Shown here: one piece after another, positions 7,848 through 56,256 of the stretch
Layout: each line of letters starts with the position of its first letter
How positions within the stretch are numbered: position 1 is the stretch's first letter
Source: Oceanicella sp. SM1341
GTDB taxonomy: Bacteria; Pseudomonadota; Alphaproteobacteria; Rhodobacterales; Rhodobacteraceae
Direction of reading: 5' to 3'
Length of the DNA stretch: 64,000 nucleotides
NCBI RefSeq assembly: GCF_003448965.1
Contig: NZ_QRGC01000006.1
Coordinates: 62,001-126,000, forward strand
Notes under the pieces: model-generated
Told to the model about the DNA's origin: nothing
What the model saw: the letters and a program-made list of their open reading frames with translations, nothing else
Databases searched by the model: none
Made by a program: the position numbers and the translations under genes

Positions 7848-8450
7848 TCAGCCCACCACGCGGCAGGTGAGGTTGATGCGCCCCGGGGCGGGCAGGAGGG
7901 TGGAGCTGCCGGGCAGGATGCGCGAGATGCCGTGATGGGCGAGGCGCGAGGGGCCGGTGAGCAGCAGCGCGTCGCCGCTGGCGAGGTCGATACGGTCGGT
8001 CCGGCCACCGCGGGTCTCGGCGCCGATGCGGAACACGCCGGTGTCGCCGAGCGAGAGCGACAGCACGGGGGCGGAGAAATCCGCCTCGTCGCGGTCCTGG
8101 TGCAGGCCCATGCGGGCGCCGGGGTCGTACCAGTTCACCAGGCAGCAGTCCGGCGGGGCGGGCCAGCCGGAGATCGCCTCCCAGGCGGCGGCGACGGTGG
8201 GGGGCAGCGGCGGCCAGGGCATGCCGTCGGGGTGGCGGGGCTCGTAGCGGTAGCCGCGCCGGTCCGACACCCAGCCGCAGCGGCCGGCCGAGGTCATGCG
8301 CACCGACAGCGGCAGGCCCCGGCGGGTGACCGGGGTGAACAGCGGCGCCGCGGCCACCACGGCGCGGATCTCCTCCACCAGCCGCTCCTGCGCCTCGCGG
8401 CTGAGGAAGCCGCGGAACCAGAGCGCGCCGCGGACGGAGATCGGGCTCAC
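7848..8450 (-). CDS. AlkB-family Fe(II)/2-oxoglutarate dioxygenase
   Basis: A 200-residue protein with the dioxygenase iron-binding facial triad: His117-x-Asp119 in LHQDRDE and a distal His172 in AHHGIS. The 2-oxoglutarate-binding RINLTCR segment supplies Arg191 and Arg197. This matches AlkB enzymes that demethylate alkylated bases (1-methyladenine, 3-methylcytosine). Its ATG overlaps the stop of the MBL hydrolase gene by 4 bp, so it is the distal gene of the ABC/CNB/MBL operon rather than part of an adaptive-response cluster with ada. Whether that linkage is functional or incidental is not visible. Confidence 0.88.
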   Translation of the reverse strand: MSPISVRGALWFRGFLSREAQERLVEEIRAVVAAAPLFTPVTRRGLPLSVRMTSAGRCGWVSDRRGYRYEPRHPDGMPWPPLPPTVAAAWEAISGWPAPPDCCLVNWYDPGARMGLHQDRDEADFSAPVLSLSLGDTGVFRIGAETRGGRTDRIDLASGDALLLTGPSRLAHHGISRILPGSSTLLPAPGRINLTCRVVG

Positions 8451-9295
8451 AACTCCAGCTCCATCCCGTCGCGCGCGAACTGCCAGCGCACCGGTGCGGC
8501 GGCGAGGGCGAGGGCGGCGGCATCCAGCATCTCGTCGGTGGAATGGGGGGAGTGGTGGACGAGCAGGGTCTGCTTCACGGCGGCGGCCTCGGCCACCTTC
8601 AGCCCGACTTCCCAGGTGGAATGGCCCCAGCCGCGGCGCAGCGGGTACTCGGCGTTGGAATAGGCGGCATCGTAGAGCATCAGGTCGGCGCCGCGGGCCA
8701 TGGCGATGACCTGGGCGTCGATCTCCGGCACGCCGTGCTCATGGTCGGTGACCGAGACGATCACCCGCCCGCCGAGCTCGATGCGGAAGCCGGTGCAGCC
8801 GCCGGGGTGGTTGAGCGGGAAGGTCTGCACCCGGGCGCCGCCGATCTCGGAGCGCGGCTCGAGCTGGCACAGCGGCAGGCGGTACTTGTCGGGGATGCGG
8901 ATGGGCCAGAGCGGCGGGCCATAGAGCCGCTCCAGCGCCTCGCGCACCGTGCCGGGCTCCTGGCCGGTCCAGATGGTCACCTCGGACTGGCCGGTGACCA
9001 GCGGCATGAAGAAGCCCAGGCCGATCAGGTGGTCGAAATGGCTGTGGCTTAGCAGGATGTCGGTGCGCGCCTTCGGGGCGGAAAGCATGGACTGGCCGAG
9101 CCCGCGCAGGCCCGAGCCGCAGTCGATCACCAGTCCCTTGCCCTCCGGCCCGACGAGCTCGAAGCAGGTCGTGTCGCCGCCGTAGCGGCGCATCGCGGGG
9201 TCGGGCACGGGCAGGGAGCCGCGGCAACCCCAGACCCGCAGGCGCACCGGGCCCGGCTTCGACTGTCCGCTGGTTCCGGCGCTTTCCTGGCTCAT
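8447..9295 (-). CDS. MBL-fold metallo-hydrolase, possibly a phosphodiesterase
   Basis: A 282-residue metallo-beta-lactamase-fold protein. The metal-binding HSHFDH motif is at residues 84-89, with later candidate ligands in NHPGG, VTDHEHG and YDAAYS. The opening RVWGCRGSLPVP followed by a GGDTTCFE strand is typical of the MBL branch with nucleotide or cyclic-phosphate phosphodiesterase members, but the substrate cannot be read from sequence. It overlaps the cyclic-nucleotide-binding gene upstream and alkB downstream by 4 bp each. The context suggests it could act on the ligand of the neighbouring CNB protein; that is an inference. No signal peptide is visible. Confidence 0.82.
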   Translation of the reverse strand: MSQESAGTSGQSKPGPVRLRVWGCRGSLPVPDPAMRRYGGDTTCFELVGPEGKGLVIDCGSGLRGLGQSMLSAPKARTDILLSHSHFDHLIGLGFFMPLVTGQSEVTIWTGQEPGTVREALERLYGPPLWPIRIPDKYRLPLCQLEPRSEIGGARVQTFPLNHPGGCTGFRIELGGRVIVSVTDHEHGVPEIDAQVIAMARGADLMLYDAAYSNAEYPLRRGWGHSTWEVGLKVAEAAAVKQTLLVHHSPHSTDEMLDAAALALAAAPVRWQFARDGMELEL

Positions 9296-9777
9296 GCCGG
9301 AGACCCGGAGCTGCCCGAGGCGGCGCAGGCGAGGGCGGCGCGGGCGTTGGCGAGCTCGGCCGTGGTGTGTTCCAGCCGGTCTGTCATCACCCGCAGCAGC
9401 TCCAGCCCCATTTCCGGGAACTGCTTGAGCAGCTTGAGGAAGGTGGTGCGGTCGATGCGCAGGGCCTGCACGGTGCCGAGCGCGCGCACCGTGGCGCTGC
9501 GCGGCCCCTCGGTGAGCAGGGCCATCTCGCCCACCACCTCATGGGCGCCCACCCGGGCCACGGCCGTGTCCTTGCCATGCGCCTCGACCAGGATCTCGGC
9601 GTCGCCGTTGAGCAGCACGAAGGCGGCGTTGCCGTCCTCGCCCTGGCGCATCAGGCACTCGCCGTCATGGAAGGTGCGGTTCTCCGCCATGAGCACCAGC
9701 AGCTTGAGCTGGGCAAGGTCCACCCCGGCGAAGAGGGGTGAGTGCCGCAGTATCTCGCATTCCCGGGACAGGCTCAT
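9292..9777 (-). CDS. Free-standing cyclic-nucleotide-binding domain protein
   Basis: A 161-residue protein made almost entirely of one CNB (Crp-like) domain. The phosphate-binding cassette at residues 83-99 reads GEMALLTEGPRSATVRA, which fits the cAMP/cGMP-binding consensus including the Arg that contacts the cyclic phosphate. There is no helix-turn-helix; the domain is followed by an alpha-helical tail. This points to a regulatory subunit rather than a transcription factor. The ATG at 9777 has AGGAGG nine bases upstream. It follows the ABC gene by 19 bp and overlaps the MBL gene by 4 bp. CNB domains that regulate a partner protein in trans are the closest analogues. Confidence 0.85.
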   Translation of the reverse strand: MSLSRECEILRHSPLFAGVDLAQLKLLVLMAENRTFHDGECLMRQGEDGNAAFVLLNGDAEILVEAHGKDTAVARVGAHEVVGEMALLTEGPRSATVRALGTVQALRIDRTTFLKLLKQFPEMGLELLRVMTDRLEHTTAELANARAALACAASGSSGSPA

Positions 9778-9796
9778 GCTGAACAACCTCCTGTAC

Positions 9797-12376
9797 TCAT
9801 GCCGCGTCGTCCGACGCGAAGATTTCCGACGGTGGCCCGGAGGCCACGACCTTGCCCCGGGACAGGCGGACCACAAGGTCCGCCTCGCGCGCCAGGGCCT
9901 CGTTCTGGGTGCCGAAGACACGGGTGCCCCCGGGCTGGATCTTCTCCATCGCCTCGCGCAGGGCGCGATGGTTGTCCGAACTGTCGTCCGCCACGCCGTC
10001 GAGCACCAGCAGGGCCGGCTTGGCCGCCAGCGCCCGGGCCAGCGCCACCCGGCGCGCCTGCGAGGGCGAGAGCGTGCTGCCCGCCAGCCCAACTTCCGTG
10101 CGCAGCCCGGCCGCGATCACGAACTGGTGGATGTCATGGCTCAGCATCGCCTGGCCCAGCCGCTGCTCCACGGGCGGCTGCGCGTCGCGGCGGTCGATGC
10201 GGGGGCGGCCGCCGAGCACGTTCTCGATCAGCGGCAGGCCGGGCAGGTAGCCCGTGTCGTCGAAGTAGTGCAGCCAGCCCTCGGCGTCGATGCGCGCGCG
10301 CAGCGGCCGGCGGGCCTTCACGATGCGCTCGCGCCGCTCCGGGCTGTCGAGCACGCCGAGCCGGTGGCGCAGCGGCACGATCTCGAAGGCGAGGCGCATC
10401 AGCATCACCTTGTCGCCCCGCGACAGCCAGCGCAGCGAGCGCCGGCGCTGCGCGGCCACGATGCGGGCGTAATCCTCGATCTCGGCGTGCTCGATGAGCC
10501 CGAGCTGCTCGACCAGCGCACCGTCGCGCCCGAGCGAGCCCAGCAGCTCGACCAGCATTTCCGCCGCCTCGAGGCCGATGCGCAGCACCTCCTCCTCCAT
10601 GCCCGTCGCCACCAGCGCCTTGCGGACATCGGTCCGCCGGGCCAGGGTCGCCGAGCGCATCTTCGGGGAATCCGGAACCCCGAAGAACAGGTTTTCGGCC
10701 AGCGTCGCATTTTCCAGATAGGCATCGCGCTGCCAGCGTTCAACGAGCCCGCTGAGGCCGGCATCCGCGTCCCGCGTCACGAGCTGGCGCGCCGCCATCG
10801 CCTGCTCGGCGAGCTGCGGCTCGCGCCGGGGGTCGAGCCGGGTCCAGAGCCCGCGGATGAACAGCTCGCGGGTGAGGCCGAGCGCGCCGAGGATCTCGAG
10901 CACGTAGGCGTCGAAGGCCTCGGCGTCGCGGATGCCGATGCGCTCGTAGTCCACCCAGTCCATCTCGGGGTTCTCCGGCGTGGCGCCGGTGAGCCGCGCC
11001 TCGCGCTCGCGGCGGGCCCAGTCCTCCGGCTTCTCGCCATGGCCCTGCTGGCCGAGCAGCGAATAGGCCACGTTCTCGCGGAAGGTGCCGGAGAGGATGT
11101 GCGGCGCCCGGGTGACATGCGCGAGGTCGCGGTAGGCGCGGGTGAGCACGTCGCGCCCGCGCTCCGAGCCCACGCGCACCGTGCCGCGCGCCGGCAGGGC
11201 CAGCCCGGCGATGAGCTTGAGCAGCACGGTGCGGCCGCCCTCCTCCTCGCCCAGCACCACCACGGTCTGGCCCGGGCGGATGGTGAGGGAGACCTCCTCC
11301 ACCCCGCCGGCCTCCAGCGGCACGTCGGAGCCGATGTTGTCCAGCACGATCTCCTCGCCCTGCAGCCGCACCGGCTCGGGCCGGCCCACCAGGCGCTCGC
11401 GGCCGTAGGCGTCGTAGACGGCGTCGTAGCGGGCGGAGATATCGGAGTAGGACTGGTAGTAGTTCAGCAGCTCGCGCCAGGGCGAGGCGATGTCCTTGTA
11501 GGCGGCGAGGATGGCCACCAGCGCGCCCAGCTCCATCCGGCCCTGGATCACCAGGTAGCCGCCGAAGGAGTAGAAGAAGAACGGCGTGATGTTGTTGATC
11601 ACGTTGTTCGCGAACTTGATGGCGTATTTGAGCAGGAAGATGCGGTAGCGGATGCGGAAGTTGGTGTAGAGCCGCTCCGACATGCGCGCCAGGTGCCATT
11701 CCCGGGCGTCGTTGATGCGCATCGCCTCCATGCCGCCGACGGCCTCGTTGATCTCGGCGGTCATCGAGCGCACGTTGCGGATGCGCTTCTGCACCAGCCG
11801 CACCACGATGCGCTGCACCTTGGGCACCACGTAGGCCTGCACGGGGAAGAGGAAGATGGCAGCAAGGCCGAGGAACGGGTCCTGCGCCAGGATGAAGCCG
11901 ATGTAGACCAGCAGCTGGCCACCCTGGTAGACCGGTGTCGCCACCATCTCGCCGGCGAAACCGCCGATGGGCTCCACCTCGGCGGCGACGATCTGCACCA
12001 CCTCGCCGGGCGAGGTGTTGCGCAGCCGGGGCAGGGGGAAGAGCGTCACCCGCTCGAACACCACGTAGCGCAGCCGGCGCAGCAGGCGCTCGCCCGTGAG
12101 CCCCTTCTGCACGTTGATGAAGTACTTCACCCCGTTGTTGACGATGATCAGCGCCAGCAGCGAGGCGCAGAGCGCGATCAGGAAATCGAGCTGTTCCAGC
12201 TCCATGCCCAGGTAGGACTTGGGGAAGTTCTCGCCGCGCAGGGCCTCGTCGACGATCAGCTTCGGGATGTAGAGCGTCGCGAGGATGATCGGGAAGGAGA
12301 CGAGCGAGGCGATGACGATGATCAGCTGATCCCGCCAGGAGCTCTTCCACACGAATTGCAGCAGGGTGCGGTCCAT
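9797..12376 (-). CDS. ABC exporter-like protein with degenerate, insertion-bearing ATPase domain
   Basis: An 859-residue half-transporter. Residues 1 to about 320 form an exporter-type transmembrane domain with several long hydrophobic helices. The nucleotide-binding domain is heavily altered. The Walker A region reads GEEEGGRTVLL near 375-385, with Arg where Lys is normal. The signature reads LSPSQARRV near 769. The Walker B end reads VLDGVADD near 790, where Gly replaces the catalytic Glu. The H-switch region near 822 reads GTQNEA without His. About 300 extra residues separate the Q-loop region from the signature. ATP hydrolysis is therefore doubtful. It leads an operon with CNB, MBL and AlkB genes. 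A frameshift is unlikely because the frame is open throughout and codon use is uniform. Confidence 0.85.
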   Translation of the reverse strand: MDRTLLQFVWKSSWRDQLIIVIASLVSFPIILATLYIPKLIVDEALRGENFPKSYLGMELEQLDFLIALCASLLALIIVNNGVKYFINVQKGLTGERLLRRLRYVVFERVTLFPLPRLRNTSPGEVVQIVAAEVEPIGGFAGEMVATPVYQGGQLLVYIGFILAQDPFLGLAAIFLFPVQAYVVPKVQRIVVRLVQKRIRNVRSMTAEINEAVGGMEAMRINDAREWHLARMSERLYTNFRIRYRIFLLKYAIKFANNVINNITPFFFYSFGGYLVIQGRMELGALVAILAAYKDIASPWRELLNYYQSYSDISARYDAVYDAYGRERLVGRPEPVRLQGEEIVLDNIGSDVPLEAGGVEEVSLTIRPGQTVVVLGEEEGGRTVLLKLIAGLALPARGTVRVGSERGRDVLTRAYRDLAHVTRAPHILSGTFRENVAYSLLGQQGHGEKPEDWARREREARLTGATPENPEMDWVDYERIGIRDAEAFDAYVLEILGALGLTRELFIRGLWTRLDPRREPQLAEQAMAARQLVTRDADAGLSGLVERWQRDAYLENATLAENLFFGVPDSPKMRSATLARRTDVRKALVATGMEEEVLRIGLEAAEMLVELLGSLGRDGALVEQLGLIEHAEIEDYARIVAAQRRRSLRWLSRGDKVMLMRLAFEIVPLRHRLGVLDSPERRERIVKARRPLRARIDAEGWLHYFDDTGYLPGLPLIENVLGGRPRIDRRDAQPPVEQRLGQAMLSHDIHQFVIAAGLRTEVGLAGSTLSPSQARRVALARALAAKPALLVLDGVADDSSDNHRALREAMEKIQPGGTRVFGTQNEALAREADLVVRLSRGKVVASGPPSEIFASDDAA

Positions 12377-12460
12377 TCACTCCCGTCCGGTTTGCGCCAC
12401 CTCGGTGGGGGATCGTAGACCGGCGCATGCGCGCTGTGCAAACGCCCTTTCCGATACGAG

Positions 12461-12476
12461 TGTGATCCGCGTCACA
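12461..12476. promoter_or_regulatory. Perfect CRP-type palindrome upstream of the ABC/CNB operon
   Basis: TGTGA-TCCGCG-TCACA is an exact match to the classical CRP half-sites with the 6-bp spacer. It is centred about 92 bases upstream of the ABC gene start, in the 157-bp gap before the VOC gene end. It fits a cAMP-receptor-type regulator controlling an operon that itself encodes a cyclic-nucleotide-binding protein. Confidence 0.6.
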
Positions 12477-19291: not shown

Positions 19292-20200
<909 letters not shown>

Positions 20201-20209
20201 ATCAATATC

Positions 20210-21040
20210 TTAAGCTCCAGCGCGGAGGGCATCATGCTCCCGCGTGAGCAGCTCGGCGGCCAATTTCTGATAGGCGATACTGCCGGCGCAGGTGTGGTCG
20301 TAGATCAGCGCCGGAATGGCGTGAGAGGGCGCCTCCGACAGGCGCACGTTCCGCGGGATGACCGTATCGTAGATCATGTCCTGCAGGTTTTCCCGCACAT
20401 CTGCCTCGACCTGGGCGGAGAGATTGTTGCGCCGGTCGTACATCGTGAGAACCACCCCCTGAACGCGCAACTCCGGGTTCTGCGCCTGGCGGATCTCGCG
20501 AATGGTGACAAGCAGCTGGCTCAGCCCCTCCAGCGCGAAGAACTCGCACTGCAGCGGCACGAGCACCGAATCCGCCGCCACCATGGCGTTCACCGTAAGC
20601 AGGTTGAGCGAGGGCGGGCAGTCGATCAGCACGTAGTCATAGCTCTCGAGCATGCGCCGGTCGTCCGCGCCGCGCAGCGCCTCGCGCAGGCGGCGCGTGC
20701 GGTTGGAATCGCGGTACAATTCAACATCGATCGAGCTCAGGTCGGTGGTCGCCGGCGCTATATCGAGATTGGGAATACCGGTAGGCGTGCGCACATCGGC
20801 CAGCCCCGCCTCCCCCATCAGCAGATCGAAGGTGTTCATGTCACGCTTCTCGCCCGTGATGCCCAGACCGGTCGAAGCATTGCCCTGCGGATCGAGATCG
20901 ACCAGCAGCACCTTGCGCCCCACGGCCGCCAACGCCGTCCCCAGATTGATGGTGGTGGTGGTTTTCCCCACGCCTCCCTTCTGGTTGGCAATCGCGATGA
21001 TCTGGCCGCGGTCGGACCGGTCAGAAGACTCAATGGACAC
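20210..21040 (-). CDS. parA: Chromosome-partitioning ATPase ParA (Soj)
   Basis: A 276-residue deviant Walker ATPase with KGGVGKTT at residues 21-28 (the signature Lys included), LVDLDPQGNASTGLG as switch I and LIDCPPSLNLLTVNAM as Walker B/switch II. It forms a nucleoid gradient that moves ParB-parS complexes and so segregates the origin. It overlaps rsmG by 11 bp and precedes parB by 9 bp in the classical gidAB-parAB order next to an alphaproteobacterial origin. Confidence 0.97.
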   Translation of the reverse strand: MSIESSDRSDRGQIIAIANQKGGVGKTTTTINLGTALAAVGRKVLLVDLDPQGNASTGLGITGEKRDMNTFDLLMGEAGLADVRTPTGIPNLDIAPATTDLSSIDVELYRDSNRTRRLREALRGADDRRMLESYDYVLIDCPPSLNLLTVNAMVAADSVLVPLQCEFFALEGLSQLLVTIREIRQAQNPELRVQGVVLTMYDRRNNLSAQVEADVRENLQDMIYDTVIPRNVRLSEAPSHAIPALIYDHTCAGSIAYQKLAAELLTREHDALRAGA

Positions 21041-21662
21041 GGTGAACCTCCGAAATGGATAGGATCCGAGCGGCCGGGTCGGTCAGACTCTCGATCTGCT
21101 CGACCTCAATATGCCAATCAGCTGCGGCCGAGGTCAATTCCGATTCGACCCTTTCCCCCTTCAGAAAGAGACATTTTCCTCCCGGAGCGAGGTGAGGTGC
21201 GGCATATGCGAGCAGGAGCGGCAACGCCGCCAGCGCCCGGGCGGAAACGACATCATGCGGTGCAGGGGGCAGCGCCTCGATACGCATGTTCCGGACATTC
21301 ACCGAAACGCCGACCTGCCTCGCGACTTCCTGCAGGAACACGCATTTGCGGATGTCGCTTTCCACCATCGTAACCCGCAATCCGGAATTCAGCTCTCGGG
21401 CCATGATCGCAACGACCAGGCCGGGCAGGCCCCCGCCGGATCCAAGATCCAGCCAACTTGTCGCCCCTTGCGGCGCATGGGCGAAAACTTGCGCCGAGTC
21501 GAGGAAGTGCCGCTCCCAGACGGTAGCAAGCGTGGATCTCGCAACCAGATTGATGCTCGGTGACCACTTCTGGAGCAGAGTCTCGTAGGTCGTCAGCGCG
21601 TCCAGTGTTTCACGTGAAACATTGAACCGGGCCGCGAAGCTGTCGCGCAGGGCAGTGGTCAT
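21030..21662 (-). CDS. rsmG: 16S rRNA (guanine527-N7)-methyltransferase RsmG
   Basis: A 210-residue SAM-dependent methyltransferase. The SAM-binding motif [12 protein letters not shown] starts at residue 71. The N-terminus has the ERHFLDSAQ segment typical of GidB. Codons 14-19 (NVSRET) are written by a perfect parS palindrome, so this coding region doubles as a ParB loading site. The start overlaps the mnmG stop by 4 bp. Confidence 0.96.
21606..21621. promoter_or_regulatory. parS centromere site inside rsmG
   Basis: TGTTTCACGTGAAACA is a perfect 16-bp palindrome identical to the conserved bacterial parS consensus. It is read in rsmG as the codons for V-S-R-E-T. ParB binding is expected. Confidence 0.95.
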
Positions 21663-23536
21663 GCCGATCGACGTCCTTCCAGATGCCGGATACGCGCCAG
21701 AAGCAAGGTCAGAGCCGCGGGCGTCATACCTTCGATCCGCGCAGCCTGACCCAGTGTCTCGGGCCGAATCGTAGAAAGCTTCACCTTCTGCTCTGTCGTG
21801 AGGCCGACGACCTCCGAATAGTCGAGCGCCTCGGGCAATTGCAACGCCTCATCCCTCTGCATACGCGCCACATCACGCTCCTGCCGCGCAACATATTGTG
21901 CATAAAGCGCGTCCCGACCCAACTGGATGCGAATCTCCGGCGCGATGCCGTTGAGCTCCGGCCAGATGGCAGCAAGGCTTGCCATGTCGACATCAGGGAA
22001 GGTCAGGAGCTCCAGGGCAGTTCTGGTGGGCCCATCCGTATTCACGGGCAGTCCTGCAGCCGCAGCGTCACGCGCCTTGATCCGCAGACCGCCGAGCGTG
22101 GCCTTCCCGGTCGCGAGCTGGTCCGACTTATCAGAAAACGCGCGAGCCCGCGCGGGCGAGACACATCCCAGTGCAATCCCCAGTGGGGTGAGGCGCTGAT
22201 CCGCATTGTCCGCGCGCAGCGACAGCCTGAACTCGGCGCGCGAAGTAAACATCCTGTATGGTTCACTCACCCCGCGAGTGATGAGATCGTCGATCATCAC
22301 CCCGATATAGCTCCCGGTGCGCTCAAACCGGGCCGGCTCGCGCCCGAGAGCCTCGGCTGCGGCGTTCAATCCGGCCACGAGGCCCTGGGCAGCGGCCTCT
22401 TCATAGCCGGTGGTGCCATTGATCTGGCCAGCAAGATAGAGGCCTGGCTGAACTCGGGTTTCGAGCGTGGCGCGCAGAGCGCGGGGGTCGACATAGTCGT
22501 ATTCGATCGCATAGCCCGGCTGAAGGATCTGAGCCCGCTCCAGCCCGCGGATCGAGCGCACGTATCTCTCCTGCACGTCCGCCGGAAGCGAAGTCGAGAT
22601 CCCGTTCGGGTAGACCGTGTTGTCGTCAAGTCCTTCAGGTTCAAGGAAAATCTGGTGCGATTCCTTGTCGGCAAACCTCACGATCTTGTCTTCGATGGAG
22701 GGGCAATAGCGCGGCCCGACTCCCCGGATATGCCCACCGTACATCGCTGAACGGTCGAGGTTCTCGCGGATGATCTCGTGGGTACGTTCGTTGGTATGGG
22801 TGATACCGCAGGCAATCTGCCGCGCGCTTGGCGCGGTCGACAGGAAGGAGAACAGGACGGGTTCCTCGTCTGCCTCCTGCATCTCGAGCACAGACCAGTC
22901 GATGCTGCGCGAGTCGAGTCGGGGAGGGGTGCCGGTCTTGAGGCGGCCGAGCGGCAACTCCATGGCTTCGATCCGCTGCGCCAGTGCCACTGACGACGCA
23001 TCCCCCCAACGCCCGCCCTCGCGCCGGACGTCACCGATGTGAATCACCCCGCGCAGGAAGGTTCCGGCCGTGAGAATCGCGGATCGGCAGGGGATGACGC
23101 TGCCGTCGGCCAGGACCACGCCGGAAACCCGGCCCTCACTCACTCGAATATCAGCAACTTCGGCCTCGAGCACGCTGAGCCCGCACTGTTCCGTGGTCAC
23201 ACGCTGCATCGCCTTGCGGTAGAGCGCTCGGTCTGCCTGGGTGCGAGGCCCCTGAACTGCCGGACCCTTGCGACGGTTGAGCAAGCGGAACTGAATGCCC
23301 GCCTCATCCGCAATGCGCCCCATAACCCCGTCCAGGGCATCGATCTCGCGCACCAGATGACCCTTGCCGAGCCCGCCAATGGCCGGATTGCACGACATTT
23401 CGCCAATGCGCGCGGCATTCTGGGTTACCAGCAGGGTAGGCACCCCCATGCGCGCGGAAGCGTGGGCGGCCTCCGTGCCGGCGTGGCCGCCACCGATGAC
23501 GACGACGTCGAAGTGGTCATGTTTCACGTGAAACAT
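21659..23536 (-). CDS. mnmG: tRNA uridine 5-carboxymethylaminomethyl modification protein MnmG (GidA)
   Basis: A 625-residue FAD enzyme that, with MnmE, installs the cmnm5 group on U34 of certain tRNAs. The FAD-binding GGGHAG lies at 15-20; [18 protein letters not shown] and the GTPPRLD stretch are signature segments, and the C-terminal helical domain binds MnmE. The first six residues MFHVKH are encoded by a perfect parS palindrome. It starts 3 bp after the mnmE stop and overlaps rsmG. Length is normal. Confidence 0.97.
23520..23535. promoter_or_regulatory. parS centromere site at the mnmG start
   Basis: This is a second perfect TGTTTCACGTGAAACA palindrome. It overlaps the mnmG start codon and codes for F-H-V-K-H. 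It lies about 3.4 kb from the proposed origin and 1.9 kb from the other parS. Confidence 0.95.
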
Positions 23537-23539
23537 TTC

Positions 23540-24832
23540 TCATTTCCCAAGGCAGAAGTTCGCGAAGATATCGTCGAGCACATGCTCAATATCTACCTTT
23601 CCGACCAGAAGGTCCACCGCGTGTGTGGCTGCGCGGATCTCCTCCGCCGCAAGATCATCGCTGCCCGCCTCTACATGAGAACGAGCGGTAAGCAGGCCTG
23701 TGACAGCGGCCTCAAGCGCCAGCCTGTGCCGCTGCCGGATGAGCGTGGAGGCGGAAGCGTAGCGGCCGGAGAGATCCGCGGCGAGCAGGTCCAGAAGCTG
23801 CGGAACGCCGGCGCCAGTTCTGGCCGAGATCGCATTGGCCGCCTCGGTGTCCAGAAGATCGGATTTCGTCGCGAGCACGATATCTCCGGGAGCGCGCAAT
23901 GCTTCCAGGTCGCCGAGACTGTCCCCCGGGGCTACCAGGAACAGTCGCAGGTCGGCGTCCAGGGCGCGCTGGCGTGCGCGCTCGACCCCGATGGCCTCCA
24001 CCTCGTCGGTGGTCTGCCTTACGCCGGCCATGTCGAGCAACGTCACGGGCAGCCCCTTGAGGTCCATGCGGACCTCGATAACGTCGCGGGTCGTTCCGGC
24101 GACGGCGGAGGTAATCGCAGCCTCGCGACCGGCAAGCAAGTTGAGAAGCGTGGACTTTCCCGCATTCGGTCGCCCGACAAGCGCGATCTCGAAGCCCTCG
24201 CGTATCCGCTCGGCCATCATGGCGCCGTCAAGCTGGGCTTTCATGCCGGAGATCGTTTCAAGGAGCAGCGCCGAAACCTCCGGAGTCACCTGTTCCGGCA
24301 CATCCTCATCGGCGAAATCGATGGTTGCTTCGAGAAGGGCGCGCGCTCGGATCAGCTTGCTGCGCCACTCGCCGGAGAGGGTGGAGAGTTCTCCGCGCAT
24401 CACTCTCATGGCCTGCCGGCGTTGGGCTTCTGTCTCGGAGGCGATCAGGTCGCCGAGCCCCTCGACCTGCGCGAGATCGAGCCGGCCATTGGACAGTGCG
24501 CGCCGCGTGAACTCTCCCGGGTCGGCCAGTCGGGCCTCCGGCTGCCGGGTAAGCCAGGCCGTGACAGCATCGACCACCGCCATCGCGCCATGCAGGTGAA
24601 GTTCGACGACAGGTTCGCCGGTGAAGCTGGCCTCGGCTTCGAAGGCGAGCACGAGAGCCTCATCGATGATTTCGCCCTCGTCATCGCGAAGCTGTCGCAG
24701 GCCGGCGTGGCGCGGCGCGGGCAGGGGGGTGAGACGCGCGGCAACGGGCCAAGCGTCCGGCCCGGATATCCGCATGACCGCGATGCCGGCCTTGCCCCGG
24801 GCACTGGCGAGGGCGAATATCGTCTCTGTCAT
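23540..24832 (-). CDS. mnmE: tRNA modification GTPase MnmE (TrmE)
   Basis: A 430-residue partner of MnmG. The N-terminal folate-binding domain is followed by a helical domain interrupted by a G domain with GRPNAGKST (220-228) and GTTRD. The switch II motif reads DMAG rather than the common DTAG. The C-terminal FCLGK supplies the catalytic Cys motif. It follows rho by 72 bp with a terminator between. The start codon and Shine-Dalgarno lie within an 8-bp hairpin (24829-24850), which may tune translation. Confidence 0.96.
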   Translation of the reverse strand: MTETIFALASARGKAGIAVMRISGPDAWPVAARLTPLPAPRHAGLRQLRDDEGEIIDEALVLAFEAEASFTGEPVVELHLHGAMAVVDAVTAWLTRQPEARLADPGEFTRRALSNGRLDLAQVEGLGDLIASETEAQRRQAMRVMRGELSTLSGEWRSKLIRARALLEATIDFADEDVPEQVTPEVSALLLETISGMKAQLDGAMMAERIREGFEIALVGRPNAGKSTLLNLLAGREAAITSAVAGTTRDVIEVRMDLKGLPVTLLDMAGVRQTTDEVEAIGVERARQRALDADLRLFLVAPGDSLGDLEALRAPGDIVLATKSDLLDTEAANAISARTGAGVPQLLDLLAADLSGRYASASTLIRQRHRLALEAAVTGLLTARSHVEAGSDDLAAEEIRAATHAVDLLVGKVDIEHVLDDIFANFCLGK

Positions 24833-24850
24833 ATCAACCTTCTGATATGA
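24829..24850 (-). promoter_or_regulatory. Hairpin sequestering the mnmE start
   Basis: TCATATCA (24829-24836) and TGATATGA (24843-24850) are perfect complements with a 6-nt loop. On the mRNA the loop holds the GAAGG ribosome-binding sequence, and the 3' arm contains the AUG. It is a plausible translational control element or RNA thermometer. Confidence 0.45.
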
Positions 24851-24858
24851 AACGGAAA

Positions 24859-24882
24859 AGCCCGAAACCTCGGTTCCGGGCT
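24859..24882 (-). terminator. Intrinsic terminator after rho
   Basis: On the minus strand AGCCCGGAA pairs with TTTCGGGCT around CCGAGG (one G-T pair), followed directly by TTTCCGTTTC. It lies 22 bp past the rho stop and separates rho from mnmE, although read-through is possible. Confidence 0.65.
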
Positions 24883-24904
24883 CTCCGCGTGACTGTCGGC
24901 CTGA

Positions 24905-26188
<1,284 letters not shown>

Positions 26189-26267
26189 TCTGAATCCGGT
26201 ACAATGGGACTTTTGGGCATGGGGGGAGGCGCCACCGGCCCGCGGCCAGTCAGCTTGAGGTGGCGAC

Positions 26268-26296
26268 TAGATAGGTAAAAACGAGACGCTTGTCAA
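26268..26296 (-). promoter_or_regulatory. Sigma-70-type promoter of rho
   Basis: On the minus strand TTGACA (26296-26291) is followed by a 17-bp spacer and TATCTA (26273-26268). This gives a predicted 5' leader of about 70 nt before the rho ATG. The -35 box is consensus and the -10 differs in two positions. Confidence 0.7.
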
Positions 26297-26306
26297 ACAA
26301 ATCGGC

Positions 26307-26765
26307 TCAGAATGGGCGTAAGACCACCAGCAGCACGATTCCGATCATCAGCAGGGTCGGGGCTTCGTTCCATATCCGGTAAAATCGCCCGTTGCGGGTG
26401 TTCGCGTCACGCGCGAACTGCTTGCGCCAGCGGCCGAGCGCATGGTGGTAGGCGGTCATCAGCACCACGAGCAGCAGTTTCATGTGAAACCAGCCGTCGG
26501 AGGCCCAGTCGACGATCCCCGGGGTGAAGGCGAGCAGCGCTCCGAACACCCAGGTGGCGATCATCGCAGGGTTCATGATCAGCCTCAGGAGCTTCCTCTC
26601 CATCTCCTGGAAGGTGGAGGACATGTCCGAGCCCGGAGGGGCCTTCTCGGCGTGATACACGAAGAGTCTGGGCAGGTAGAAGATGCCCGCCATCCAGGTG
26701 ATCAGCGAGATGATGTGGAACGCCTTCGTCCAGGGGTACAGGGCGGTGAGGATGTCGGCGATCAT
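26307..26765 (-). CDS. hemJ: Protoporphyrinogen oxidase HemJ
   Basis: A 152-residue membrane protein with four hydrophobic helices. The first contains WTKAFHIISLITWMAGIFYLPRL with the conserved His and Arg, and the third the MKLLLVVLMTAYHHALGRW segment, both diagnostic of HemJ (UPF0093). It oxidises protoporphyrinogen IX to protoporphyrin IX in the membrane. Its 5' end borders the proposed origin. A degenerate parS-like palindrome lies inside it. Length is standard. Confidence 0.93.
   Translation of the reverse strand: MIADILTALYPWTKAFHIISLITWMAGIFYLPRLFVYHAEKAPPGSDMSSTFQEMERKLLRLIMNPAMIATWVFGALLAFTPGIVDWASDGWFHMKLLLVVLMTAYHHALGRWRKQFARDANTRNGRFYRIWNEAPTLLMIGIVLLVVLRPF
26476..26491. promoter_or_regulatory. 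Degenerate parS-like palindrome in hemJ
   Basis: AGTTTCATGTGAAACC matches parS at 13 of 16 positions and keeps the GTTTCA...TGAAAC arms. The central CACGTG is changed to CATGTG. It may be a weak ParB site or a decayed one. Confidence 0.35.
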
Positions 26766-26883
26766 GGCGTGTCTCCGGTTTGCGGGGCCCTCCTATCAAA
26801 GAGAAAGACTCTTTTAAAAGGTTGGTGTTGTTGTAGGGCGCTGAATCATGGGGATTAACGCATTCATAAAGCCGTCCACACAG

Positions 26884-26892
26884 TTATCCACA
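26884..26892 (+). promoter_or_regulatory. Consensus DnaA box
   Basis: TTATCCACA is an exact match to the DnaA consensus. It is flanked directly by the weaker boxes CCGTCCACA and TTGCCCACA in the same orientation. Confidence 0.8.
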
Positions 26893-27143
26893 TTGCCCAC
26901 AGGCGTTTTCGGGGCATTTCGCCGTCTCGTGTGGTTACCCTAACCGTTTGCAAAAATAGGCGAAAATGCGATTCGCAAGCCTCGGTGTGCCGCGGGCAGG
27001 CAGAGCAGGGCCGAATAATTTTCAACATCGGTCGATTTTAACCATTAACAGCTGGAAGACTCCCCCGCTTTCCACGGGCAAACGCTTCCTCGCAAAAATC
27101 ACACACATTGCTCCTCGATTCCCCAACCGGGTTACCCACCCCT

Positions 27144-27152
27144 TTTTCCACA
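27144..27152 (+). promoter_or_regulatory. DnaA box variant
   Basis: TTTTCCACA fits TTWTNCACA and lies near the ppsR end of the origin region, same orientation as the 26884 box. Confidence 0.6.
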
Positions 27153-27194
27153 GGCGCGTTCGTGCACTATGGCGGCAGCATGCAGGAAGACCCG

Positions 27195-28028
27195 ATGGAA
27201 GAAGAGCCGATCACGCTTCACATCCACCTCGTCTCGGATTCCACGGGAGAGACGGTCTCGGCGGTTCTGGAGGCGGCCTCGAGCATGTTTCCGGTTCTGG
27301 AGCCGCAGACCCATCTGCACCCGTTCGTGCGCACGCGCGCTGCCCTCGACGAGGTGATCGCCGCGCTGGAGGCGGAGCCGGGCCCGGTGTTCTGTTCCAT
27401 CGCCGACACCTCGGTGAGCTCCGAGCTGTCCGAGCGGGCCGCGCGGCTGCAACTCGAGGTGGTGGACGTGCTCGCGCCGGTCGTCTCGGCGCTGAGCCGG
27501 GTCGGCGGATCACGCCGGGTGGAGCGGCCCGGGAGCCAGTATCGCGTGGATGCGGGGTATCTCGAGCGGGTGGCCGCGCTGGATTACGCGATCAGCCATG
27601 ATGACGGGCTGAGCCCGGATTACCTGCTGCAGGCGGACGTGATTCTCGTCGGGGTGAGTCGGACCTCCAAGACCCCCACCTGCATCTACCTCGCCTACCA
27701 GGGCATCCGGGCGGCGAACGTGCCGCTGGTGCATGGCGAGGCGCCGCCCGAGGGGCTGTTCGAGGCGCAGCGCGCCGGGCTGCCGGTGATCGGGCTCACC
27801 GCCTCGCCGCAGCGCCTGGCGCAGATCCGCCGGCACCGGCTCTCCAATATGGAGATCATCGGGGAAAACCCCTATGCAGACATTCATCACATTCGCGACG
27901 AGGTGACCGATGCACGCCTGTTCTTCGAGAAACACGGTATCCCGATGATCGATGTCACCCGCCGCTCGATCGAGGAAACCGCGGCCGCCGTGCGCGTGCT
28001 GCTGCGCAGGAGCAGGGTGCCGAGTTGA
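27195..28028 (+). CDS. ppsR: Pyruvate, phosphate dikinase regulatory-type kinase/pyrophosphorylase
   Basis: A 277-residue DUF299 protein. N-terminal HIHLVSDSTGETVSAVLEA leads into the P-loop-like GVSRTSKTPTCIYLAYQG, the family hallmark. Members phosphorylate and dephosphorylate pyruvate phosphate dikinase or PEP synthase with ADP and Pi. I prefer the ATG at 27195, which has AGGA seven bases upstream; an ATG at 27180 adds five residues. The homologue of this gene borders oriC in Caulobacter-like genomes. It overlaps maf. Confidence 0.92.
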   Translation: MEEEPITLHIHLVSDSTGETVSAVLEAASSMFPVLEPQTHLHPFVRTRAALDEVIAALEAEPGPVFCSIADTSVSSELSERAARLQLEVVDVLAPVVSALSRVGGSRRVERPGSQYRVDAGYLERVAALDYAISHDDGLSPDYLLQADVILVGVSRTSKTPTCIYLAYQGIRAANVPLVHGEAPPEGLFEAQRAGLPVIGLTASPQRLAQIRRHRLSNMEIIGENPYADIHHIRDEVTDARLFFEKHGIPMIDVTRRSIEETAAAVRVLLRRSRVPS

Positions 28029-55522: not shown

Positions 55523-56256
55523 CAGTCCCCCGGTCCGGTGAGTGTTGCGAGGGTGATCTCCTCCTCCAGCGCGGTGATGGAGGGCACGACCAGCGTGCGC
55601 CCCTCGCGGCGGATGAGCCCGGCCTTGAGCATGCGGCCCATCTCGCGCGCCACCGTCTCGCGGTTGGTGGAGAGGTAGCCGGCGATCTCGAGCTGGGTGG
55701 GGGGCGAGACGATGCGCGCGCGGTCGGTGCCGCCCAGCCGGTGGTGGCGGGCGAGGCGCAGCACCTCGCGCGCCGCGCGCTGCGGCGCGGTGAGCGAGGA
55801 GATGTCGGTCATCCGCTCGGTCATGCCGCGCAGCTTGCCCACCAGGATGCGGCACAGCGCGAAGGAGAAATCGGGCCGCTCGCGCACCAGGTCGCGGAAG
55901 GCGGCGGAGGAGATGCGGGCCGCGATGCACTCGCTCTGCGCCACCACGGAGGAGGAGCGCGGCGCGTGGTCGATGGCCGAGAACTCGCCGAAACAGTCTC
56001 CGGGCGCGAGGCTGAGGAAGGCCACCTCGCGGCCGCTCTCGGTGAAGACCGTGGCCTTGGCCGCGCCGGTGAGCAGGAACCACACGTCCTGCTCGGGGTC
56101 GTCGGCGTTGATCATCAGGCTGTCGACCGGGTAGCTGCGCGCCCGCCAGCGCACGCCGAGCGCATCGAGCGAGGGCTGCTCGAGCATGCTCAGCAGGCTG
56201 CCTTCCCTGAACTTCACGCTCAGGCCCCAGAGTTTGCGCCCCGTCGGCTCGGCCAT
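55522..56256 (-). CDS. Crp/Fnr-family transcriptional regulator
   Basis: A 244-residue regulator. The N-terminal cyclic-nucleotide-binding-like barrel has a PGDCFGEFSAIDHAPRSSSV cassette, which keeps the GE..A....R pattern, so ligand binding is possible. The C-terminal winged helix is QLEIAGYLSTNRETVAREM (about 193-211). There are no N-terminal Cys clusters, so it is not FNR. It is co-translated with the CPA2 antiporter and probably regulates it. Confidence 0.9.
   Translation of the reverse strand: MAEPTGRKLWGLSVKFREGSLLSMLEQPSLDALGVRWRARSYPVDSLMINADDPEQDVWFLLTGAAKATVFTESGREVAFLSLAPGDCFGEFSAIDHAPRSSSVVAQSECIAARISSAAFRDLVRERPDFSFALCRILVGKLRGMTERMTDISSLTAPQRAAREVLRLARHHRLGGTDRARIVSPPTQLEIAGYLSTNRETVAREMGRMLKAGLIRREGRTLVVPSITALEEEITLATLTGPGD

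Follow-up and report, generated by a model that had tools for sequence, protein, structure and literature searches.

Our results point to a putative, undescribed, signal-controlled step in cell-surface sugar synthesis, centered on an ABC-exporter-like pseudo-ATPase and a CNB-domain protein encoded side by side in the window (the whole stretch of DNA analysed here, 64,000 nucleotides from Oceanicella sp. SM1341). On a slight balance of probability, we regard this pair as an ATPase-dead membrane unit that responds to cyclic nucleotides and belongs to a surface-glycan pathway. We infer a scheme in which cAMP or cGMP would bind the CNB domain, present either as a partner protein or as a fused tail of the ABC protein, and the ligand-bound CNB would alter the state of the non-hydrolysing, type-IV-exporter-shaped ABC part; this state would in turn switch a membrane step in the glycan pathway of a glycosyltransferase (GT) operon. 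Candidate steps are access through a gated path, flipping of a lipid-linked sugar, and assembly of a synthesis complex or enzyme scaffold.

Gene organization of the locus

All four open reading frames of the locus were confirmed (Table 1) and are closely spaced or overlapping as the preliminary description had reported, with 4-bp overlaps between the CNB and MBL genes and between the MBL and AlkB genes, and a gap of 19 bp between the ABC and CNB genes; the AlkB gene falls outside the interval assigned to the operon in that description (8447-12476). Comparison with a congener (G001) gave dN/dS values of about 0.17 for the ABC gene, 0.09 for the CNB gene and 0.28 for the MBL gene, all well below 1, and the three genes are therefore under purifying selection between the two congeneric species. 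Elsewhere in the window, positions 20001-28000 have a G+C content of 62-65%, against about 70% in the remainder, and may be an acquired stretch.

Table 1. Features of the locus, in window positions
Feature	Position	Strand	Basis or remark
ABC-exporter-like pseudo-ATPase, 859 aa	9797..12376	-	ORF; PF00664 and PF00005 above Pfam cut-off
Free CNB-domain protein, 161 aa	9292..9777	-	ORF; PF00027 above Pfam cut-off
MBL-fold hydrolase, 282 aa, HSHFDH motif, optional companion	8447..9295	-	ORF; PF12706 above Pfam cut-off
AlkB-like 2OG-Fe(II) dioxygenase, 200 aa	7848..8450	-	ORF; PF13532 above Pfam cut-off
Transmembrane domain (TMD) of the ABC protein	11387..12376	-	Best-conserved region of the family
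Thrice-repeated segment, ABC residues 412-812	9941..11143	-	Profile comparison
CRP-type palindrome TGTGATCCGCGTCACA	12461..12476		Motif scan of the window
Promoter-like TTGCAC-18-TACGAT	12412..12441	-	Read by eye; equal spacing in G001

An exporter fold with decayed ATPase motifs

The ABC protein consists of a TMD (residues about 1-330) followed by an enlarged NBD (about 340-859), and its matches to PF00664 and PF00005 place it in the type IV exporter fold. The AlphaFold model (pLDDT 86, pTM 0.81) has the fold of an ABC exporter, with Z scores of 21-23 to solved exporters and NBDs (up to 23.3, VIA), and the heterodimeric exporters TmrAB and TM287/288 turned up in these comparisons; a model of the fused ABC-CNB form reached a pTM of 0.67. 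No curated NCBIfam model captures the family. The NBD contains three repeated segments, at residues about 412-540, 538-690 and 695-812, and in every one of them an asparagine is invariant (N435, N562 and N719). These were found by comparing segment against segment, which gave probabilities of 97.9 for copies 2 and 3, 90.6 for copies 1 and 2 and 84.7 for copies 1 and 3, and an hhalign run of the whole NBD against itself listed no repeat.

The broken ATPase proposed in the preliminary description was borne out and extends well beyond the window. Walker A reads GEEEGGRT and Walker B LLVLDG in the window protein, and the switch histidine is replaced by glutamine. None of the 73 family members retains all five of the Walker A lysine, the Ser/Thr, the Walker B aspartate, the catalytic glutamate and the switch histidine, and a search for LSGGQ in the same members found it in none (0/73). 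A canonical Walker A occurs in two of the 73, and in most members a glutamate or aspartate directly follows the Walker A Lys/Arg. Three canonical ABC proteins from the same genome, used as positive controls, showed every motif that was searched. Judged by its motifs, the ATPase is decayed across the whole family, from which loss of the activity itself would follow; ATP might still be bound without turnover, since the Walker A lysine is kept in 33/73 members. The retention of that lysine, and of the catalytic glutamate in 29/73, could also be taken to mean that these proteins are ordinary exporters with a divergent yet active ATPase, but this is very improbable given the absence of any member with the five residues, the missing LSGGQ and the acidic residue after the Walker A Lys/Arg in most members.

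Heterodimeric ABC exporters with a single degenerate site are common, TmrAB and TM287/288 being the examples among our structural matches, and the protein could likewise be the degenerate half of such an exporter, with the ATPase-competent half encoded outside the locus. We consider this improbable as well, because degeneration affects the signature, Walker A and Walker B together in one chain, no recurrent half-transporter family adjoins in the mapped loci, and the only ABC genes that recur nearby, in some loci, are those of Opp-type importers.

Pairing with the CNB protein and extent of the family

The check for co-occurrence or fusion of the ABC and CNB proteins in relatives that the preliminary description had proposed gave a uniform result. 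A CNB accompanies the ABC protein in all 73 full-length loci examined, the window included, as the next gene downstream in 54 and as a C-terminal fusion in 19. Adjacent CNB genes lie on the same strand and nearly always less than 200 bp from the ABC gene, and the label of fused or adjacent changes only twice on the tree. ABC and CNB are best explained as the two parts of a single obligate unit. The 54 include a locus of Sinorhizobium meliloti strain R11 with a truncated ABC reading frame; the full ABC-CNB arrangement is annotated in strain ml46.

The phosphate-binding cassette of the window CNB (GEMALLTEGPRSA; PF00027, 74.9 bits) is intact, as had been claimed, with both the glutamate and the arginine present (GE...PRS). 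Stand-alone CNBs keep the glutamate in 52/55 cases and the arginine in 55/55, followed by threonine or serine. Cassettes of fused CNBs are looser, with aspartate in place of glutamate in 6/19, and because of this loosening some of them may have lost cyclic-nucleotide binding. Pfam found PF00027 alone in the 161-aa window protein and no helix-turn-helix or other DNA-binding domain. The annotation of the S. meliloti CNB gene (L139, 16311-16775) names a Crp/Fnr transcriptional regulator, a label that is probably wrong, since its window relative has no DNA-binding domain. A role in anti-phage defence was considered and rejected: the CNB resembles those of Pycsar effectors and cyclases, yet the MBL and AlkB proteins have no defence match and neither a Pycsar effector nor a cyclase is found among the four genes.

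The family is broader than the window alone could reveal. A TMD profile matched in 129 of 385 sampled alphaproteobacterial genomes, a few of which may carry a TMD-only form alone, and among 398 genomes drawn from the phylum it found a relative in one genome outside the class. ABC relatives beyond the genus share 28-37% identity, and plasmid records with relatives come from Rhizobium, Sinorhizobium, Azospirillum, Ruegeria and others. TMD-only relatives of about 310-340 aa (L111-L114; G004, G005), with neither an NBD nor a CNB nearby, often share a genome with full-length members. A divergent ABC-CNB clade (L109, L110) from one family lies near exonuclease III, with no GT cluster nearby.

A glycosyltransferase operon as main partner

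The main partner of ABC-CNB is a GT operon that adjoins it in most relatives and was missed in the preliminary description. ABC-CNB stands beside glycosyltransferase genes in about 40 loci, most often divergent from a GTa-HisPase-GTb-GTb-GTa array, in which GTa is GT28-like, GTb is GT4 and a histidine phosphatase is often part of the operon; a small methyltransferase gene often comes next after ABC-CNB. Rhizobial versions of the cluster add an Opp-type importer, and on pSymB of S. meliloti the first genes of the cluster encode an adenylate/guanylate cyclase and a polysaccharide lyase.

The window genome has an intact GT operon that is unlinked to the locus and lies on a different contig (G000:C39, 56475-61633), with an RTX-like protein carrying GGxGxD repeats encoded upstream of it (L129, 418-2517). 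The ABC family and the GT operon co-occur. A protein search with GTa across the 385 genomes found both in 123, the ABC family only in 6, the GT only in 3 and neither in 253, so that the GT28/GT4 operon is present in 123/129 genomes with the ABC family; the Fisher p of about 7e-89 is overstated and the counts are inflated, since the genomes share ancestry, and the GT query had been picked for neighbouring the ABC family. In at least 26 genomes ABC and GT lie on separate contigs or with more than 15 kb between them, and contig breaks may hide linkage in some of these; in G190, G167, G415, G337 and G198, however, both are on one contig and far apart, and distances on one contig range from 40 kb to megabases. 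In a set of 61 near relatives, every one of the 10 genomes that have a full-length ABC protein also carries GTa with a high score, and of three further genomes with GTa, two (G004 and G005) hold TMD-only relatives.

How the ABC protein would serve a glycan pathway can be read in more than one way. One proposal, which we put forward tentatively, is that it represents a class of bacterial membrane proteins derived from ABC exporters that would flip a lipid-linked glycan, or open a gate for it, under ligand control. The binding of a cyclic nucleotide would then have taken over from ATP hydrolysis in triggering the conformational change, with the triplicated NBD segment as coupling element. A non-transporter role, with the dead ABC fold as a membrane scaffold or assembly platform for glycosyltransferases to which the CNB relays the signal, seems to us just as doubtful. 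The family-wide loss of catalytic residues, a TMD better conserved than the NBD, the invariant positions of the repeated segment, the tight co-occurrence with the GT operon and the existence of TMD-only relatives all agree with a scaffold. However, the TMD still has the fold of an exporter, lipid-linked-saccharide exporters and flippases such as MsbA, HepA and PglK are among its nearest named models, and no other recurrent exporter gene is found in the mapped ABC-CNB clusters. The cyclic-nucleotide-responsive, ATPase-dead unit that we favour spans transport and scaffolding alike.

MBL and AlkB genes

The ABC-CNB-MBL gene order pointed out earlier recurs in rhizobia (L106, L107), and to that extent the observation holds, but most loci lack the MBL gene. 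MBL relatives (34-83% identity) are present at 7 of about 73 loci. In four of these (the window, G001, L106 and L107) the gene directly follows the CNB gene in the same orientation; in L039 it adjoins the CNB gene convergently, and in L118 and L060 it lies farther away. The window genome holds essentially one copy of the gene. Its association with the CNB exceeds chance and is far from universal, and MBL is an optional companion. The AlkB gene is linked to MBL and ABC-CNB within the window genus only and is not supported as a part of the system.

The circuit originally envisaged, in which the CNB senses a ligand, MBL degrades it and the ABC protein is gated, would fit the three genes in that order on one strand in four loci and the related MBL genes near the CNB in three more. 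We find it unlikely as a whole, given the few loci that have MBL at all and the scores of the protein itself. MBL reached 59.8 bits against a cut-off of 400 for the cyclic-nucleotide phosphodiesterase model NF041851, which makes a ligand-degrading enzyme only a guess, and RNase Z models score it alike, so that the scores do not separate a phosphodiesterase from an RNase Z-like enzyme.

CRP-type operator and possible signal sources

A perfect TGTGA-N6-TCACA palindrome stands 85 bp upstream of the ABC gene and is the sole one in the window (0.01 expected), in agreement with the operator reported before. The site is conserved within the genus: in G001 the half-sites are kept and the core is changed (TGTGACGGATATCACA), with unchanged geometry and an equal distance to the promoter-like pair. 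The palindrome would lie near -63 of that pair, a class I position. A CRP-type regulator probably also activates transcription in the window genus. Another perfect site precedes the gene for the fused ABC-CNB protein in Ruegeria sp. TM1040, and with the window, G001 and one near match it completes the CRP-type sites upstream of ABC genes (0.2 expected in 72 relatives); such sites are not general to the family.

Both a signal and a reader of the operator plausibly exist in the window genome, since it contains six matches to class III cyclases as well as CRP-family proteins whose recognition helix reads RExxxR, one of them near a cyclase on contig C12. There (G000:C12, 74784-77289; L124, L135), about 2 kb separates the class III cyclase match from a CRP-family gene whose helix reads RETVNR. 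A CRP-family regulator with an RETVAR recognition helix is also encoded in the window itself (55561-55782, minus strand) and is a possible operator reader.

Significance and comparison with known systems

Cyclic-nucleotide signalling in alphaproteobacteria is known chiefly through transcription factors, and a widespread candidate membrane effector would tie cAMP/cGMP directly to surface-glycan synthesis. The ABC-CNB family occurs in Sinorhizobium meliloti and other tractable bacteria, and it is a natural test case for the function of an ABC fold that has lost ATP hydrolysis. The literature searched contained no description of the family, and the locus is not named in the accessible part of the S. 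meliloti Clr regulon paper. SMb20813, which has been termed an msbA homolog (PMC10945364), may be a candidate S. meliloti member of the ABC family.

The nearest case, and the only related one that literature searches for the combination brought up, was HetC of Nostoc PCC 7120, a peptidase-containing ABC exporter whose CNB domain is needed for function and bound ppGpp, not cAMP (PMC10986499). A cyclic-nucleotide ligand for the CNB described here is thus less certain, because CNB domains can bind other ligands. HetC resembles the ABC-CNB family in joining an ABC exporter to a CNB, but it has an N-terminal CNB, a C39 peptidase and an essential catalytic ATPase residue, whereas our family has decayed ATPase motifs, no peptidase (Pfam gave no C39 match in the window ABC protein) and a CNB that forms the C-terminus or has a gene of its own. 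MsbA, HepA and PglK share the type IV exporter fold and are among the best-scoring named models, but scores are far under the curated cut-offs (119.3 bits for the window protein against 602 for the MsbA model TIGR02203), and the family differs in its decayed and enlarged NBD and its CNB partner. NHLM/NHLP bacteriocin export systems (TIGR03796, TIGR03797, TIGR03896) likewise associate an ABC exporter with a CNB protein, but all scores are far under the cut-offs and the context of the ABC-CNB family is one of glycosyltransferases. As an analogy only, SUR uses an ABC fold for regulating another protein, and the ABC-CNB protein may similarly regulate and not pump, although SUR is eukaryotic and has nucleotide-sensing NBDs.
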